From NCBI GenBank assembly GCA_025057115.1, contig JANWWZ010000003.1, positions 1 to 64,000 of the forward strand: a stretch of DNA of 64,000 nt, written 5' to 3'. Under the pieces are notes generated by a model that was not told the DNA's origin, did not search any database, and worked only from the letters and a program-made list of their open reading frames with translations. This document shows, piece after piece, positions 19,190-50,614 of the stretch. The stretch's first letter is position 1. Each line of letters begins with the position of its first letter. This stretch comes from Bernardetiaceae bacterium. Its GTDB lineage: Bacteria; Bacteroidota; Bacteroidia; Cytophagales; Thermoflexibacteraceae. Position numbers and translations under genes: made by a program.

Positions 19190-19728
19190 GACCCAAAAAT
19201 ATCGAACTAAATGCAACAATAACGGCGGGGCAAATAACAACCGCCGTTGGCTAGCCAATCGAACCTAAAGACATACTCGTAGACCAAAACCTGCTAACAA
19301 GTGAACTTTCTAAGCCTATTTAGTTAGTCAGCAACAAGATATGAATTCCATTTAGCCTTATAAGCGGTTTACTTTGGTTGCAGCATATGAAAAGGCTACT
19401 TTGTGCAAAAATAGAAATGGCACCCTGCCGACCAAACAGCACCCATACTCATCTCTAAAGTTCAATGGTGAGCTATCCCTATTTCTTTTTGCCTCTGCTG
19501 CATTGCCGTATTGAGCAAATTTCCTCTGGTTGCTTGGTATTCGTTACGTGTACTTTGTTTTTTTAGTACTTTGGCAACGGTGGCAGCAGAGTTGATTATA
19601 CTGTTAGCCGCACTTTATTTTGGATTTGTTCAACAAAAATGGATAAACGCTGCCGAAGGGCATCGCCTTACCACCTTCAAAAGCAAATTAGCTAGCTCTT
19701 GCGGCGCGTTATCATCTGATAAAGTTTT
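19190..19728. other. Intergenic stretch of about 540 bases with one hairpin
   Basis: No convincing gene is seen. A 73-codon frame from a TTG at 19511 has one hydrophobic segment but no recognisable homology and overlaps the upstream region of the next gene. It is not called. The only structure is the hairpin at 19221-19248. No tRNA or clear promoter could be identified. Confidence 0.5.
19221..19248. repeat. GC-rich inverted repeat after menB
   Basis: AACGGCGG (19221-19228) pairs perfectly with CCGCCGTT (19241-19248) around a 12-base loop, 31 bp behind the menB stop codon. A second small palindrome, GGCTAGCC, follows directly. There is no T-run, so it may be a transcript-stabilising or non-canonical terminator hairpin. 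Confidence 0.5.
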
Positions 19729-28634: not shown

Positions 28635-29468
28635 TCACTCAGGCTTGACAACTACACTGCCCTCTTGAATGGTTTCAACTTGGCTATCTTCTCTTTCTTG
28701 AAAAGAAATGATTTGACTGCCAAGAGTATGTTTTCTAGTGATTAATTTGTCACTCAGCAAGCGAATGAGATTTTTTTCATGACGATTGTTAGCCAATTTC
28801 AAATACGCGTTGAAATGACAAATCATTATTTCACAGTCGTGCCAACTGCCTAACAGCTCAGTAATTAGCTCTAAATTCTCGGAAGATAGGTCAGATGGAT
28901 TGTAATTAGTAGCTTTTAGAGCGTGTAAATGCGCTTTGAATTGTTTCCTAAGGTCGTGCCAGTGCTTTTCAGGTGTAGCGCTGAGCCACTGCACTGCAGA
29001 GGATAGTTCTTTGTTTTTCTGATTGAGAAAAGCTTCTACTGCAGGAGTTTGTAATTCACCAAAAGCCACTTCCAATGCTGCAAAAATGTTTTCTACTACA
29101 CTTAAAAAACTGCTGGTGATTTTTTTGCAAAGATTGGTGTAATAATGTTGTTTTTCTTGTTCAATTACATTCAAAATAAATGAAGCCTGATAGCCTTCAG
29201 GGGTATTAGAATTAATAAATTGCTCTTCCAGTTGCTTTTCGCGCAACAGACCTGCTGCAGAAAAAACTTTGCGCACAGCACGTCGTTGCTTTTTATTTAG
29301 ATAACAACCAGCGCTAAGTGATTCAGCAAGTTGTATGAGTGCCCTTAATTTTTTAATTTCCACTCGCAACTGGTGAAATGTTTCTGTGTCATGCAATTGT
29401 AATGGGGTTTGCAAAATAGCTAACAAACGCTTGCAGCGCTGATGCAAGTAATCTTTTAGCGTTTCCAT
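28635..29468 (-). CDS. CHAD-domain protein
   Basis: CHAD domains are helical bundles with conserved histidines and lysines that bind inorganic polyphosphate. The 277-residue form starts METLKDYLHQRC. The frame extends to 29507 but adds nothing family-like. The signature FHQLRVEIKKLRALIQLAE lies near residue 30. A second, less conserved repeat follows near residue 150, with HDLRKQFKAHLHALKA and LLGSWHDCEIMICH. The protein lies 51 bp downstream of the DUF4905 gene and within 3 kb of ppx/gppA. That proximity suggests polyphosphate metabolism. Confidence 0.85.
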   Translation of the reverse strand: METLKDYLHQRCKRLLAILQTPLQLHDTETFHQLRVEIKKLRALIQLAESLSAGCYLNKKQRRAVRKVFSAAGLLREKQLEEQFINSNTPEGYQASFILNVIEQEKQHYYTNLCKKITSSFLSVVENIFAALEVAFGELQTPAVEAFLNQKNKELSSAVQWLSATPEKHWHDLRKQFKAHLHALKATNYNPSDLSSENLELITELLGSWHDCEIMICHFNAYLKLANNRHEKNLIRLLSDKLITRKHTLGSQIISFQEREDSQVETIQEGSVVVKPE

Positions 29469-29519
29469 ATGCCTAGCTTCCCTGATGTGGCTAATAAAAC
29501 GACTCAAAGGCGTTGATGG

Positions 29520-30365
29520 TTACATTTCAAATATGCGGACTCCATCAGAAAAAAGTAATACTACCCAGCGATTGCTTATAACGAAAAATGTATCTTCAGC
29601 AATGCCATTTAAGTGATTTGCAAGAGTAATTTGATTCACAAGGCGTTCTTTTGCCAGGTCATAGGCAAACCATTGCAATTCTTGTCGATGATTATCACAA
29701 GCAAATAGCATGTAATGATCATTTTCCCAGTAGTGAATGGTAGAAAAGGGCTTTTGTTGTGCAATTTGTTGTAGGTACTGGCTAATAGGTTCAAAATGAG
29801 GAGATTGGGGCGAGTAAACAACAGGAGTGCCCACTTTTTCCAATGCACTTGGACCCTCTAGAGAAATAATTTTTTCCAGTGGAACTCCCGTATCAGGGTT
29901 TAACTTGCGCCGATGAATTATTCCCTGTTCTACTGCATAGACGGAAAGTACGTGTTGTTTTACTTCTACTAAATAGTCTTCTGTTTGCTTCCATCGCAGT
30001 TTTTGAGTAGCCAAATCCCAAGCCCAAATGCCTTTGGGGTCAGGGTATTGCCTTCCAGATTGTCGATAAAGCAAAAGTAGATGGGCAGTAACTCCCGCTA
30101 AATGAAAAGTTTGTGGCTGAAAATCAGGTTGCCAGTTATCTAACAATAAAATAGCGTGATTCAGGTCCAAAACAGAAAATGAAACGCTACTGGCTGAGCG
30201 AAATTCTATAGCTAACAAATCCTGCTGGAGCTCAGGATTGTTAGCCACTCGAAAAAGGCACATGCCCGGGTAAAAATACTCCAGCAATTCAGTCATGTGC
30301 AAAGATAAATGTTTTACCTGCTTATGATAATTAACCCCATCTTTAACATTTTCAACAACGGACAA
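29520..30365 (-). CDS. DUF4905-family protein
   Basis: The 281-residue protein resembles the Bacteroidota family DUF4905, whose function is unknown. It has no clear signal peptide and is beta-rich with repeated WAWDLATQKLRWKQ-type segments, suggesting a beta-propeller-like fold. Two starts are possible. The ATG at 30296 (MTELLEYFYPG) has a TAnnTTTG-like box just before it, while the longer form starts at 30365. It precedes the CHAD gene on the same strand with 51 bp between them, so they may be co-transcribed. Confidence 0.65.
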   Translation of the reverse strand: MSVVENVKDGVNYHKQVKHLSLHMTELLEYFYPGMCLFRVANNPELQQDLLAIEFRSASSVSFSVLDLNHAILLLDNWQPDFQPQTFHLAGVTAHLLLLYRQSGRQYPDPKGIWAWDLATQKLRWKQTEDYLVEVKQHVLSVYAVEQGIIHRRKLNPDTGVPLEKIISLEGPSALEKVGTPVVYSPQSPHFEPISQYLQQIAQQKPFSTIHYWENDHYMLFACDNHRQELQWFAYDLAKERLVNQITLANHLNGIAEDTFFVISNRWVVLLFSDGVRIFEM

Positions 30366-30509
30366 AGTTTTGACCGCAGTTCTAAAATTTGCTCTAAGCT
30401 TTAAGGCTCATCTCTGAGATTTTTTCTTTTAGGAATAGGTCTTGAATCATTTTTGCTTTGCAACGCAGATTTGACTTTTCCTTTGCCACTGGACTATCTC
30501 AAAAAAATT
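30366..30509. other. Non-coding gap beside the sigma-factor remnant
   Basis: No reading frame or RNA gene is recognised in this AT-rich stretch. It separates the DUF4905 gene from the remnant that begins near 30510. Together with the remnant it forms a gap of about 670 bases without an intact gene. Confidence 0.5.
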
Positions 30510-31010
30510 TGCTTAGCATTTGATTTTTTTTCAACTAAAAGAATGTGAGCAAGCCTCGAAGGATCTTGGAACAGAAAACAAATTCAACTTATATGAAAGG
30601 CTGATGATCTGGTGGAAACCGTTGCCTTAGTGAAATAAATCCTCTGCTTGGAGCGCAGTTTTTGCGGTTATTTGATTGCAAGGGTAATAATCCATCTGCT
30701 CCAGGTCAAGTAAAAAGTTGACATGATTTTTTTCTTAAAATTGTTAGCGCTTCATTGACAACAATGCGGCGCAGCTACTTTTTAAAATTACTTCTTGGTA
30801 AAAAGTGTGTAAATTTTGTAGCGCATTTTGTCATGCCAGCGATCATAGCATTTTCTGCTTCAGCCCGTTGGGGTAAGTAGCGCAGACATACTCCCAACAT
30901 AGAAACAGCATGGGGCTTATAAATCCACTCTTGCGCAGCAAGTTGCCTGTCAAACAATCTTTAAGGGCAGTTTTTTTATTAACTTCTTCGAGCCGAACAA
31001 GCCTATCCAG
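30510..31010 (-). pseudogene. Decayed ECF sigma-70 family RNA polymerase sigma factor
   Basis: Reading the minus strand from about 31010 downwards, fragments of one ECF sigma factor appear in order but in several frames. They are EEVNKKTALKDCLTG, then DRQLAAQEWIYKPHA and MLGVCLRYLPQRAEAENAM (region 2), then after an in-frame TAG at 30775 LRRIVVNEALTILRKKS (region 2.4 side). DLEQMDYYPCNQ and TALQAEDLFH follow, then LRQRFPPDHQPF (region 4), and a SRLAHILLVEKK tail near 30540. The TAG sits where relatives have tryptophan. At least three frame changes and two internal stops (at 30775 and near 30595) make a functional product very unlikely. Confidence 0.82.
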
Positions 31011-31039: not shown

Positions 31040-31831
31040 CTAAAAAAATTTTGTTTGAGCCGCTTCTTCTGCCATTTGCTCAGATGCCTTCTCTCCTAAA
31101 TAACTTTTGATAGCAAAATGCATCACGTAAAGAAGAGGAATAGTTAGCAATGCAACAGCAAATTTGTAAATGTAGTTAATGATACCTACTGAAATAACCT
31201 GCTCCCAACTCCAACGCGGATTGGCGAATACGTAAAATGCAATAACTAGCACTACAAAACTGTCAATAAGTTGGCTAATAAGAGTAGAGCCCGTTGCCCG
31301 CAACCAAATAATGCGGCTACCTGTCAAACGGCGAATCCATTGAAAAGTGAAAGCGTCAAGTAATTGACCTATTAAAAATGCAGTAAGAGAACCAATAATA
31401 ATGCCTAAACTCTGTAAAAAAATTCGGCTAAAGGCTTCGTTAATGTTTAAAGGATTGCCAGCACTGTCGGTGTTGTTGATATGGAGCCAAAAATCAGCGG
31501 GTACTAGCTGAGTGGCAAGGTAAATCATTACAAAGGCATAACTGATAAAAAATGCCGTAAGTAGGGAAATTTTGCGCACTCCTGCTTTGCCAAAGTACTC
31601 GTTGATGATATCGCTAGTAATAAATACAATTGGCCAAAGTAATACTCCTGCCGTGAGATTGAAATCTAATACGAAATCTCCCAAAAGCGGAATTTGTGCT
31701 GGTGGAAAGTTGAACGTTTTCTCCAGTGAAAAAATTTTCGTGCCTATCATTTCAGCCACCAAAGCATTAGTAAGAAAGAGCCCCGTGAGAAAAAAGAAAA
31801 GATTGCTCTTTTTTTGTTGCAGCGAAGTCAT
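31040..31831 (-). CDS. Queuosine precursor transporter, YhhQ/VUT family
   Basis: The family imports preQ0/preQ1 or related bases for the queuosine modification of tRNA anticodons. The 263-residue product has about six or seven membrane helices (TGLFLTNALVAEMIGTKIF at residues 16-34, GVLLWPIVFITSDIINEYFG near 58, SLTAFLIGQLLDAFTFQWI near 157). The motif ITSDIINEYFGKAGVRKISL is typical. The length is a little above E. coli YhhQ (221) because of N- and C-terminal extensions. It stands 208 bp from the sigma-factor remnant and 63 bp from ridA on the same strand. Confidence 0.88.
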   Translation of the reverse strand: MTSLQQKKSNLFFFLTGLFLTNALVAEMIGTKIFSLEKTFNFPPAQIPLLGDFVLDFNLTAGVLLWPIVFITSDIINEYFGKAGVRKISLLTAFFISYAFVMIYLATQLVPADFWLHINNTDSAGNPLNINEAFSRIFLQSLGIIIGSLTAFLIGQLLDAFTFQWIRRLTGSRIIWLRATGSTLISQLIDSFVVLVIAFYVFANPRWSWEQVISVGIINYIYKFAVALLTIPLLYVMHFAIKSYLGEKASEQMAEEAAQTKFF

Positions 31832-46706: not shown

Positions 46707-48569
46707 ATGTATCCTACATACGATATTATTGTAGTGGGTGCGGGTCATGCCGGATGCGAAGCAGCGCATGCAGCCGCTACCATGGGAGCTAAGGTATTGC
46801 TCATTACTATGAACATGCAAACCATCGCTCAAATGAGCTGCAATCCGGCCATGGGGGGAGTAGCCAAAGGTCAAATCATTAGAGAAATAGATGCCTTAGG
46901 AGGCATGTCAGGAATTATTACCGACAAAACTATGATTCAATTCCGCATGCTGAACCGTTCAAAAGGTCCTGCCATGTGGAGCCCCCGAGCTCAAAACGAC
47001 CGCATGAGATTTTCTGAAACATGGAGGCTTGCTCTCGAAAAAAATCCTAACATAGATTTTTGGCAAGAAATGGTTACCAGCCTTGTGGTAGAAAAAGGAA
47101 GAGTAAAGGGAGTTAAAACAGCCCTGGGAATTACCTTCCATGCCAAAGCGGTCATTTTAACCAACGGAACTTTCCTCAACGGGCTTATTCACGTAGGAGA
47201 GAAACAATTTGGCGGCGGCAGAACAGGTGAGAAAGCCGCTTTCGGCATTACTGAACAACTAGTTAGTCTAGGATTTGAAGCTGGTAGAATGAAAACAGGA
47301 ACGCCTCCACGGGTAGATGGTCGTACCCTCAACTATCAAGCAATGGAAGAGCAAAAAGGCGACGATCCACCAAGCAAATTCTCTTTTACCGACACTCCAC
47401 CCCTTACTAAACAAAAAAGCTGTTATATCACCTACACAAACCCCAAAGTGCATGAAATGCTAGCCTCTGGATTTGACCGCTCCCCTATGTTTAACGGCAC
47501 CATTAAGTCTGTAGGTCCGCGTTACTGTCCCTCTATCGAAGACAAAGTAAATCGGTTTGCAGAGCGCGACCGCCATCAAATATTCGTAGAGCCAGAAGGC
47601 TGGGAAACTATTGAAGTGTACGTCAATGGCTTTTCTACCTCTTTGCCTGAAGATGTGCAGTATAAGGCTCTGCGGCTCATCCCAGGCTTTGAAAATGCGC
47701 GCATGTTCCGCCCAGGCTATGCCATCGAGTACGACTACTTTCCTCCCACTCAACTTAAACCTACTTTAGAAACTCAACTAATAGAAAACCTCTATTTTGC
47801 TGGACAAATCAACGGCACTACCGGCTACGAAGAAGCAGCTTGCCAAGGGCTTATAGCTGGAATCAACGCCTATAACAAAGTTTTTGAAAAAGAACCTTTT
47901 GTGTTGAAACGCTCAGAAGCCTACATCGGAGTACTCATAGATGACCTGGTAAATAAAGGCACAGAAGAACCCTACCGAATGTTCACCTCCAGAGCAGAGT
48001 ACCGCATTCTACTCAGGCAAGACAACGCTGACCTTAGACTTACTGAAAAAGGTTATCGCTTGGGACTTGCCAACGAACAACGCTACCAAAACATGCTGCG
48101 CAAAAAACAACAAACAGAAGATTTACTTCGTTTTTTAAAGCAGAAGAGTGTTTGTCCAGAAGAGGTCAACGGTGCGTTGCTAAGCCTGGGCTCGGCACCA
48201 TTGAGTCAAAAAGTAAAAGCAGAACAAATCATTAAACGTCCAGAAATTACTCTGCAACAACTGGCTCAAATGGACAAACAAATAGGAGAAGAACTGGCTA
48301 AATACACTTCTGAGGCTATCGAACAAGCTGAAATCATGATCAAGTACGATACTTACATAGAAAAAGAAGAGCGGCTTGCAGTTCGCCTCAGCAGTTTGGA
48401 CAACATCAAACTGCCTCCCACGTTAAACTATCACGAAATTAAAGCACTTTCCAAAGAAGCCAGAGAGAAACTCACCCGTTTGCGTCCGCAAACCTTAGGA
48501 CAAGCCTCGCGCATTAGCGGCGTATCGCCAGCTGATGTTTCTGTTTTAATGGTTTACCTAGACAAATGA
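46707..48569 (+). CDS. mnmG: tRNA uridine 5-carboxymethylaminomethyl modification enzyme MnmG
   Basis: MnmG (GidA) works with MnmE to modify wobble U34 of several tRNAs. The 620 residues match the family. The FAD motif [20 protein letters not shown] is at residues 10-29. [20 protein letters not shown] follows near residue 43. The catalytic cysteine region [15 protein letters not shown] is near residue 270, and [19 protein letters not shown] near 375. The C-terminal MnmE-binding helical part ends in [19 protein letters not shown]. It has its own candidate promoter behind the parS palindrome, and its stop overlaps the next gene by four bases. gidA genes often sit beside the origin. Confidence 0.97.
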
Positions 48570-50248
48570 AAAATTGGTTTTATTTCACCAGCAGCCTCCT
48601 AATGACTTTAATAAGTAGCTGCGCCAACATGGGTATGCCACCTCCTGGTGGTCCTAAAGATACACAACCCCCTAAACTTCTGTTTAGTGTTCCAAAAGAC
48701 CAAAGCGTGCAGTTTAACGGAAAAGTCATCAAACTGGTTTTTGATGAATATATAGAGGTCAAAAATCTCAAGTCAGGGCTTATTATTACCCCTTCTATCA
48801 AAGGCGATTACGAGTTTAAACTCAACAAAAATACTCTCACCCTAACTTTTGAACAAGATTTCGAACCTCAAACCACTTATGTTCTCGATTTCGGTCAGAC
48901 GATACAAGATGTCAACGAGCGCAACAAAGCCGAAAACTTGCGCCTAGCATTTAGTACTGGCAACCAGATAGATACAGCTAACATCAGCGGTAGGGTAACC
49001 GAATTGCTCACTGGAGCCCCAGAAATAAAAGCTGCTGTATTGCTATACAAGTGGGACGACACCCTAGATGTATTCAAACACAAGCCTTTATACCAAACCC
49101 GCACTGATTCTTCTGGAAAGTATCACCTTAAAAACATCAAACCCGACAAGTATAAAATTTATGCTTTGCAGGAAGGTTCCGAAAGCGATTTAATTTACAA
49201 TAATTCCCAGGAAGCAATCGGGTTTGATTCCGCAGCGATAGATCTTACTGATCGCTCTTTTAGGACAGTAGATTTGCAAACAGTGCGCTACGATACGCGA
49301 CCCTTTCGCCGTACCCAAGCCCGACCTGTGCGCCAGTTGTATGAAATCAAATTTAACAAGGGGCTTTACGCTGCTCATCTTGAATATGCTGATACTGCAA
49401 ACGCCTCAAAACTCCGCTGGATGCGCGAAAATGACGTAATCCGTTTTTTTCGCACGTCCCAATACCAACTCGGCGACAGTGTAAAAGTTTTTCTCACTGC
49501 TCTGGATTCTGCTGGCAATCAACTCAGTGACACTCTTGATGTATACTTTGCCGACGTGTCCAAAGAAAAAAGTATTAGAAAAACGCCTTTCGAGGCGAAA
49601 GAATCACCTCCTTCTGGGGCATTAATCACTCCACTCATTAACCAGTTAAAATTTGATATCCATTTTAGCAAGCCAGTGAGCCAAGCAGCGATAGACAGCA
49701 TTCAATACCAAGTAGTGATAGCTAAGGACACTCTTAAAAATCAAAAACTTACTCTGCAGGACTACACGTGGGACAAAAACTTAACAAGGCTTACTGTTAG
49801 TAAAAATTTTGGTAAAAATGTAAAAGAGTTTAAAATGAAAATAGGAAAAAATGCTTTTATTTCGGTTGAATCTGATACCCTTAAACCAAAAGAGATTTCT
49901 TACAAAGAACGCGACCCAAATGAACTTGCAAGCGTAAGCGGTCAGGTGCGCACTAAATACCCTTACTTTATTGTTCAACTCACCAGTGAGAAATTTATCG
50001 TAGAGCAGGAATTGTTCAACAAAAACGAATTTAAGTTTGAGTATGTCACCCCAGGCAATAAGCGCCTGCGCATTATTGGTGATTTAAATAACAATGGCAA
50101 ATGGGATGCTGGCAATCCAGCCAAAGGTATCCTTCCTGAACCTGTTTACATATTTGGAGAGGTCATTAAGGTAAAGCCTAAGTGGGAATACGAGGACATT
50201 ATCATCGATACTTCAAGCTTTTCACTCCAAAGTGTGAATAACGATTGA
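48566..50248 (+). CDS. Lipoprotein with Big_5-type Ig-like domain
   Basis: The 560-residue product has a lipoprotein signal ([10 protein letters not shown], Cys near residue 19). [12 protein letters not shown] linker and an SbsA/Big_5 Ig-like domain follow (residues 30-125, [36 protein letters not shown]). A carboxypeptidase-like beta domain near 140-220 ([20 protein letters not shown]) comes next, then a second Ig-like part. This layout is common in Bacteroidota outer-membrane lipoproteins of unknown role. Its ATG overlaps the mnmG stop (ATGA), so translation may be coupled. The last codons contain the first TTATTCACA-type box of the origin-like region. Confidence 0.78.
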
Positions 50249-50614
50249 ATAAGTTGTGAATAAGTTGTGAATAACTATGTGAATTGTGTGAATAACTAGT
50301 GAATAAAAGCGGTTTTACAGCCCTTTTGAACCCTAGTTATTCACATGCTATTCACAGTTATTCACAGGTTATTCACAGGTTATTCACATCCCACTACAGG
50401 TGTGAATAACTTTATTCACAGGGAGAGAATAGTGTGAATAACTATCCTAACTCATTGAAAATAAGGCATTTGTTATTCACACCCCTTTGAATAACTTGGC
50501 ATAAAGTGTGAATAAGGTGTGAATAACTCCTCTCAAAACTTTGAGTTATTCACACAATTCACAGCCCTACAACCACTACTATATTGAAATTTTAATTATT
50601 TTAGTAGTAGAAGT
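50233..50614. other. oriC: Candidate replication origin (oriC): dense array of DnaA-box-like 9-mers
   Basis: Fifteen exact copies of TTATTCACA, or its complement, occur here. They fit TTATNCACA, the DnaA-box consensus. Plus-strand forms start at 50337, 50358, 50369, 50380, 50412, 50473 and 50546. Complement forms (TGTGAATAA) start at 50233, 50255, 50266, 50287, 50401, 50433, 50507 and 50518. Near copies with one mismatch start at 50298, 50348 and 50486, and a two-mismatch copy at 50244 fills an 11-bp gap. An AT-rich stretch with CTACTA and TAGTAGTAG triplets follows at 50572-50610, in the place expected for the unwinding element. mnmG and parS are close by. A DnaA-titration site is the main alternative. 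The region lacks a gene. Confidence 0.8.
50572..50610. other. AT-rich stretch beside the box array, possible unwinding element
   Basis: Directly right of the last boxes the sequence turns very AT-rich (TATATTGAAATTTTAATTAT). CACTACTA lies before it and TAGTAGTAG behind it. Repeats of TAG read 3' to 5' as GAT resemble the DnaA-trio described at basal origins, but orientation and spacing could not be checked here. It ends just before the TPR gene start, so it could also hold that gene's promoter. Confidence 0.4.

Follow-up and report, generated by a model that had tools for sequence, protein, structure and literature searches.

The subject of this report is the spacer between a Vut_1 family gene and a DUF4905-like gene in a 64,000-nucleotide stretch of contig JANWWZ010000003.1 from a Bernardetiaceae bacterium (the window; its genome is termed G000). 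Positions 31000-30601 on the minus strand are almost certainly a pseudogene of an extracytoplasmic function (ECF) sigma factor, formerly the head of an operon for the sigma factor, a probable anti-sigma factor and an outer-membrane barrel. Homology, a broken reading frame, an intact counterpart in the same slot of a related genome, the absence of the partner genes and a shared promoter motif carry this finding. Comparisons were made with the three other available genomes of the same genus (G001, G002 and G003).

When the minus strand of the spacer was translated in three frames, successive pieces of an ECF sigma factor appeared in the expected order, with the frame changing between them. In a frameshift-aware alignment with residues 28-162 of the G001 sigma factor (L068, 6228-6887), 69 of 130 codons were identical (53%). 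The score was 287, whereas 60 dinucleotide-shuffled versions of this DNA averaged 33.7 and did not exceed 50; the alignment carries six frameshifts and one in-frame stop. A profile built from 51 sigma sequences (that of G001 and those of 50 loci) reached 294 with ten shifts, while 200 shuffles gave a mean of 35.7 and a maximum of 63.6. The remnant was also matched by plain tblastn (E 8e-25). These results bear out the description of a decayed ECF sigma gene in changing frames that an earlier note had given from the DNA letters. The same note had pointed to a TAG in place of a conserved tryptophan; this stop is indeed found at 30777-30775 on the minus strand, at the tryptophan of SFEGW in the G001 sigma factor and in the majority of the profile. 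Across 31000-30400 the three frames contain 10, 8 and 10 stops, respectively; none of them is uninterrupted, and the longest open run has 61 codons from stop to stop.

The remnant (30601-31000, minus strand) covers the start of the gene, sigma-70 region 2, the linker and the edge of region 4. The alignment stops at residue 162 of the G001 protein, in which the Pfam Sigma70_r4_2 match comprises residues 148-199, so that only the first ~15 of 52 region 4 residues are covered. Beyond this point, nothing was distinguishable from shuffled DNA. When the tail at 30600-30366 was aligned locally, its score was reached by 62 of 200 shuffles, and by 129 of 200 with a cheaper frameshift. The anchored alignment score of the tail at 30600-30381 was reached by 39 and 73 of 300 shuffles, and its extension score by 300 and 97 of 300. 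We therefore rejected the rest of region 4, with its helix-turn-helix, as a part of the remnant. Of the earlier proposal that regions 2 and 4 follow each other in order within 30510-31010, region 2, the linker and the beginning of region 4 stand, and the upper edge is about right for the gene start; the rest of region 4 does not stand, and the significant alignment ends at 30601. At 30297-30600 (minus strand), where G001 has the remainder of region 4 and the genes for the anti-sigma-like protein and the barrel, nothing was recognisable. The two partner proteins of G001 had no tblastn match in this spacer at E <= 10 and none anywhere in G000 at E <= 0.01.

The remnant differs from the G001 gene at 0.36, 0.22 and 0.61 of codon positions 1, 2 and 3, compared with averages of 0.17, 0.09 and 0.51 in eight intact G000-G001 sigma pairs, which have 66-89% amino-acid identity. 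At positions 1 and 2, the Jukes-Cantor excess is ~0.23 substitutions per site (0.14 relative to the fastest pair and 0.31 relative to the slowest). Expressed as a fraction of half the third-position distance, the excess is 0.28-0.84, or very roughly between one quarter and four fifths of the time of the lineage since the split from G001. This is a rough figure and probably an underestimate, since codons that could not be aligned do not enter it. Since a coding signal is still visible, the sigma gene was under selection during part of the time since the split. Thus, it was functional for part of this time and has then been long dead; it is no recent knock-out.

The intact operon and its loss across the genus

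An intact locus was looked for in close relatives, as the earlier note had proposed, and found in the same slot of G001. There, an operon of three genes lies between Vut_1 and DUF4905 (L068, 6228-6887, 5452-6231 and 4513-5445). The first gene encodes a sigma factor of 219 amino acids that matches Sigma70_r2 (PF04542), Sigma70_r4_2 (PF08281) and TIGR02937. The second and third proteins (259 and 310 amino acids, respectively) both lack a Pfam family. The nearest named sigma loci belong to metagenome-assembled genomes of Cytophagales, which makes this order probable for the window as well. The operon neighbourhood was examined at 25 named loci (L106-L130) of 80 fetched; L111, which has this gene order, belongs to a named Algoriphagus species. 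At 19 of the 25, the third gene resembles that for the 310-amino-acid protein, and all 19 of these third proteins match the outer-membrane barrel family PF13568 (E <= 0.01). A structure model of one of them has a strand-rich C-terminal half (mean predicted local distance difference test, pLDDT, 74.5). In the PDB it is most similar to OmpA-type and other barrels, at low template modelling scores, and we therefore claim nothing beyond "barrel".

Of the second proteins at the 19 loci with a barrel homologue, 18 have a hydrophobic span, and one of these 18 has two. The second protein is probably the anti-sigma factor, to judge from its position, this span and a low-confidence model with two short helices near the N terminus. 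Its family (alignment A2, 19 sequences from L106-L130) shares the N-terminal motif D..F...L....PS..AW, has no convincing Pfam domain and is a candidate for a new anti-sigma family.

The G001 sigma factor does not appear to have an intact orthologue elsewhere in G000. Its best match had an E value of 7.5e-40 in G000, 1.1e-40 in G002 and 2.8e-40 in G003, compared with 8e-144 for its own gene. Among the other nine genomes of the family, eight matched it at 2.4e-59 or better and the ninth (G005) at 9e-43. A reciprocal comparison of 14 of the 19 G001 sigma loci with the 12 G000 sigma frames accepted by the profile yielded eight pairs, none of which included this sigma factor. PF04542 matches number 15 in G000, 19 in G001, 16 in G002 and 14 in G003.

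The slot was also compared in the two remaining genomes. The G003 spacer has 185 bases. When it was aligned with the part of G001 that begins at the Vut_1 end and runs into DUF4905, the first 90 bases matched at 91% and the last 177 columns at 88%, and at the junction the head of the sigma frame is joined to the tail of the barrel gene. As read from this alignment, the scar is a near-complete deletion of the operon. The G002 spacer (526 bases) clearly matches G001 at its ends only, and neither a sigma match nor a recognisable remnant was detected in it.

According to pairwise identities of four flank genes, G000 stands outside the other three genomes and G001 goes with G003. In a tree of these four genes, G001 and G003 were joined with support 86, and the node joining G002 to the outgroup had support 43. 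A reliable root was not obtained, and the order with G000 branching first is that of the pairwise identities in the four genes only. Under this order, the losses in G000, G002 and G003 would be independent, and the whole module was probably lost three times in one genus; the weak root support also allows for two losses with further decay.

Loss of ECF sigma factors is common and by itself unremarkable. The whole set of three genes is present in the slot of one relative and lost in two others, indicating ordinary gene loss with several stages visible. The remnant is an ordinary pseudogene of a known kind, and the comparison across the genus is more interesting than the remnant itself.

A shared promoter motif and its predicted targets

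Of 55 sigma loci (L076-L130, with 48 distinct upstream sequences), 53 are preceded by the motif CAAC-N15-19-CATC, 51 of them with a spacer of 17 bases. In 200 mononucleotide shuffles, the motif occurred 1.1 times on average and 4 times at most. A strict form, GCAACCTT-N14-CATCT, gave 58 sites in 25 of 39 related genomes, compared with 3 for a reversed control. G000 has no such site, G001 five, G002 two and G003 one; in this genus, no form of the motif other than the exact strict one is conspicuous, and the numbers are small. By coordinates, one of the five G001 sites is within the gene for the 259-amino-acid protein, and another is inside a different frame.

We fetched 33 of the 58 strict sites, leaving aside six own-operon sites, the one within the operon and 18 from more distant genomes, and scanned the first downstream gene at 20 of the 33. 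Gene starts lie 17 to ~224 bases downstream of strict sites. Among the scanned genes, four encode DUF5686 proteins with a carboxypeptidase-regulatory domain (G001, G006, G008 and G010), two DUF2807 and one DUF4097. One POTRA/Bam-like and one YfiO/BamD-like protein were both found in G009. There were also one M48 peptidase, one ABC ATPase, two TPR proteins, one DUF418 and one DUF1028 protein, one barrel under the cut-off of its family and four proteins without a family. Several sites precede outer-membrane genes, and judged by these families the predicted targets look like a possible outer-membrane stress regulon.

The DUF5686 gene is retained in all four genomes of the genus, with 71-100% identity to that of G001 over the searched part. 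Upstream of it, the identical motif GCAACCTTTGCCGGCAATGCAACATCT is present in G001 and G003. G002 retains the CATCT part with an altered CAAC part, and in G000 neither part is found at the aligned place. This series is consistent with promoter decay after loss of the sigma factor. A second gene with an exact site in G001 encodes 94 amino acids; G002 contains a weak homologue, likewise with an exact site, whereas G000 and G003 gave no match at E <= 0.01. The sites that persist in G002 and G003 are also consistent with service by another sigma factor. A literature search returned no publication about the disappearance of an operon of this kind or about the CAAC-N17-CATC motif.

Flanking genes and other features of the window

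The upstream flank gene (31040-31831, minus strand) is intact and belongs to the Vut_1/queuosine precursor transporter family (Pfam PF02592, 2.4e-44; TIGR00697, 2e-36). It has 86-87% identity to its counterparts in G001-G003. The downstream flank, an intact DUF4905-like gene (29520-30296, minus strand), matches PF16248 at 8e-7 with 29.3 bits, slightly below the cut-off of 29.6. Its identity to the G001-G003 counterparts is 52-53%. Because these matches start at residue 16-18 and CACATGAC at this gene is common to all four genomes, ATG at 30296 is more likely to be its start than TTG at 30365. A promoter-like TATCTTTGC (30299-30307, minus strand) lies 2 bases before the ATG and fits TAnnTTTG, the housekeeping promoter of Bacteroidota. 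TAnnTTTGC is found two bases upstream of the DUF4905 ATG in all four genomes (window; L068, L069 and L070), which suggests that DUF4905 expression is independent of the lost operon. The gene may be transcribed without a leader from its own housekeeping promoter.

With the ATG start, the Vut_1-DUF4905 spacer measures 743 bases. It is the longest gap in the window between frames of at least 100 codons (675 bases with the TTG start; the next has 540). This second gap, at 19190-19728, is without a 100-codon frame, and no obvious gene was seen in its translations by eye. Next after DUF4905, a CHAD-domain gene lies at 28635-29507. It is also a neighbour in G001 and G003, at ~32% identity and thus with divergence above that of the compared flank genes, and had no match in a 12-kb stretch of G002. 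RNA families and transfer RNAs were searched in the window, and none were found at the thresholds used.

Elsewhere in the window, positions 50233-50554 (322 bases, both strands) hold 12 exact copies of GTTATTCACA, 5 copies with one mismatch and 1 with two. All exact copies of the window fall in this interval; at two mismatches, the window-wide count is barely above chance (84 vs a mean of 68.9). GTTATTCACA fits TTATNCACA, the DnaA box. The cluster is located in a 367-base gap ~1.7 kb past a gene (46707-48569) that by eye resembles mnmG/gidA, and the 4-kb GC skew turns from negative to positive at ~50 kb. The cluster is probably the chromosomal replication origin.

The proposed switch and competing explanations

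In genomes with an intact copy, the operon is probably a switch that responds to envelope stress and regulates itself. The membrane protein would act as an anti-sigma factor and hold the sigma factor until an envelope signal frees it. The freed sigma factor, together with RNA polymerase, would then start transcription at GCAACC-N16-CATCT promoters of its own operon and of outer-membrane genes. In G000 the operon was lost: nothing recognisable is left of the two distal genes, and the sigma gene has slowly eroded; any order of these losses is inferred. At least one probable target gene, that for DUF5686, was retained without an ECF promoter.

Known systems offer partial parallels. Among ECF sigma factors (sigma-70 group 4), the remnant is homologous to the PF04542/PF08281/TIGR02937 type over the parts that it retains, and differs in having no open frame and a mostly unrecognisable region 4. 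Sigma-E and RseA form an envelope stress system in Escherichia coli, and the sigma-E structure 1or7 was matched by sequence at 2.4e-10. The intact copies resemble this system in combining an ECF sigma factor with an adjacent membrane protein, in their autoregulation motif and in sites before Bam-type and outer-membrane genes. In contrast, the membrane protein hits no RseA family in Pfam or NCBIfam, the third gene encodes an outer-membrane barrel, and the promoter is CAAC-N17-CATC; the function is a predicted one. The SM6 ECF promoters of Flavobacterium psychrophilum are likewise Bacteroidota ECF promoters, and their set includes a sigma/anti-sigma pair (PMC9723704). The SM6 genes listed there include those of the type IX secretion system and Band-7 rather than DUF5686 or Bam genes, and the main text of that paper contains no word beginning with GCAAC.

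For the Cytophagales we tentatively propose a sigma-E-like envelope-stress switch, with a new type of anti-sigma factor and a barrel as sensor, that acts on CAAC-N17-CATC promoters of genes for outer-membrane biogenesis. It would have been lost at least three times in this genus, whose species would form a natural series in the dismantling of a regulon: the target promoter would be intact in G003 after a young loss, partly eroded in G002 and gone in G000, where the target would now use another promoter. Several results weigh against parts of our main explanation, the lost operon of a sigma switch. Most of region 4 is unrecognisable in the remnant, and the 3' end of the gene would be placed only by comparison with the relative. 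Pfam gave no known anti-sigma domain for the second protein, and the NCBIfam antisigma hit of this protein is below threshold (16 bits, cut-off 100). The hydrophobicity cut-off was missed by the 259-amino-acid protein of G001 and also by the second protein of L110. The model of the second protein is poor (pLDDT 56), with two short N-terminal helices followed by a helix at 42-64, and at this low confidence it was discarded for anything beyond helix positions. The 310-amino-acid protein itself has no Pfam match, and the label "barrel" comes via its homologues. Allowing one mismatch in the strict motif gave no clear excess in G000-G003 (7 vs 5, 8 vs 6, 7 vs 7 and 5 vs 3), nor did GCAAC-N17-CATCT (4 vs 8, 16 vs 11, 10 vs 12 and 10 vs 8). 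Finally, the promoter-decay series consists of one target gene only.

Could the gene be intact in the organism and broken only by a sequencing or assembly error? The genome is a draft of 86 contigs and there are homopolymer runs within the stretch, but the flank genes are open, and the remnant diverges in protein sequence beyond the eight intact sigma pairs (53% vs 66-89% identity). Moreover, most of region 4 is eroded, the partner proteins are unmatched in the genome and the operon is missing from two further species of the genus, making an error exceedingly improbable. The earlier note had seen the gene as freshly inactivated, with its regulon now uncontrolled. A recent single hit would agree with the visible coding signal (mismatch 0.36/0.22/0.61 vs G001), but not with 6-10 frameshifts, 8-10 stops per frame, a mostly eroded region 4, the disappearance of both partner genes and about 0.14-0.31 substitutions per site since inactivation. 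The sigma gene is not freshly inactivated, since the whole module is lost. The idea of an uncontrolled regulon is weakened by the exact strict motif (0 sites in G000 vs 5 in G001), which is gone at the retained DUF5686 gene as well. We regard recent inactivation as highly unlikely.

The 60-codon open frame at 30957-30775 belongs to the longest open run of the stretch and contains the best conserved part, as would suit a functional mini-protein acting as a region-2 decoy. Nevertheless, towards its end ~12 of the 60 codons do not follow the sigma frame, being enclosed by two compensating shifts, TTG is its only start and it has no Pfam match; such a function is hardly credible. Takeover of the promoters is a different matter: a paralogous ECF sigma factor with overlapping specificity would serve GCAACC-N16-CATCT sites in species that lack the original, and this is compatible with loss of the module as proposed above. 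G002 and G003, both of which lack an orthologue, do have exact sites at 24-47 bases upstream of start codons, and G000, G002 and G003 each still have 14-16 PF04542 matches. However, when [GA]CAAC-N16-18-CATC was sought at 15 G000 and 13 G001 sigma loci, the only two matches were in G001 (L200 and L202). G000 has no exact strict site, and persistence in G003 could reflect a young loss. On balance, takeover is possible but rather doubtful.

The decay of the whole module thus remains our preferred explanation. One slot in one genus displays an intact operon, a near-complete deletion, a spacer with no recognisable remnant and an eroding pseudogene. With these four states, and with a promoter readable from intact relatives, the fate of target promoters after loss of a sigma factor can be asked. 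The predicted CAAC-N17-CATC regulon, with its outer-membrane genes, provides a testable lead on the control of envelope stress in these bacteria.
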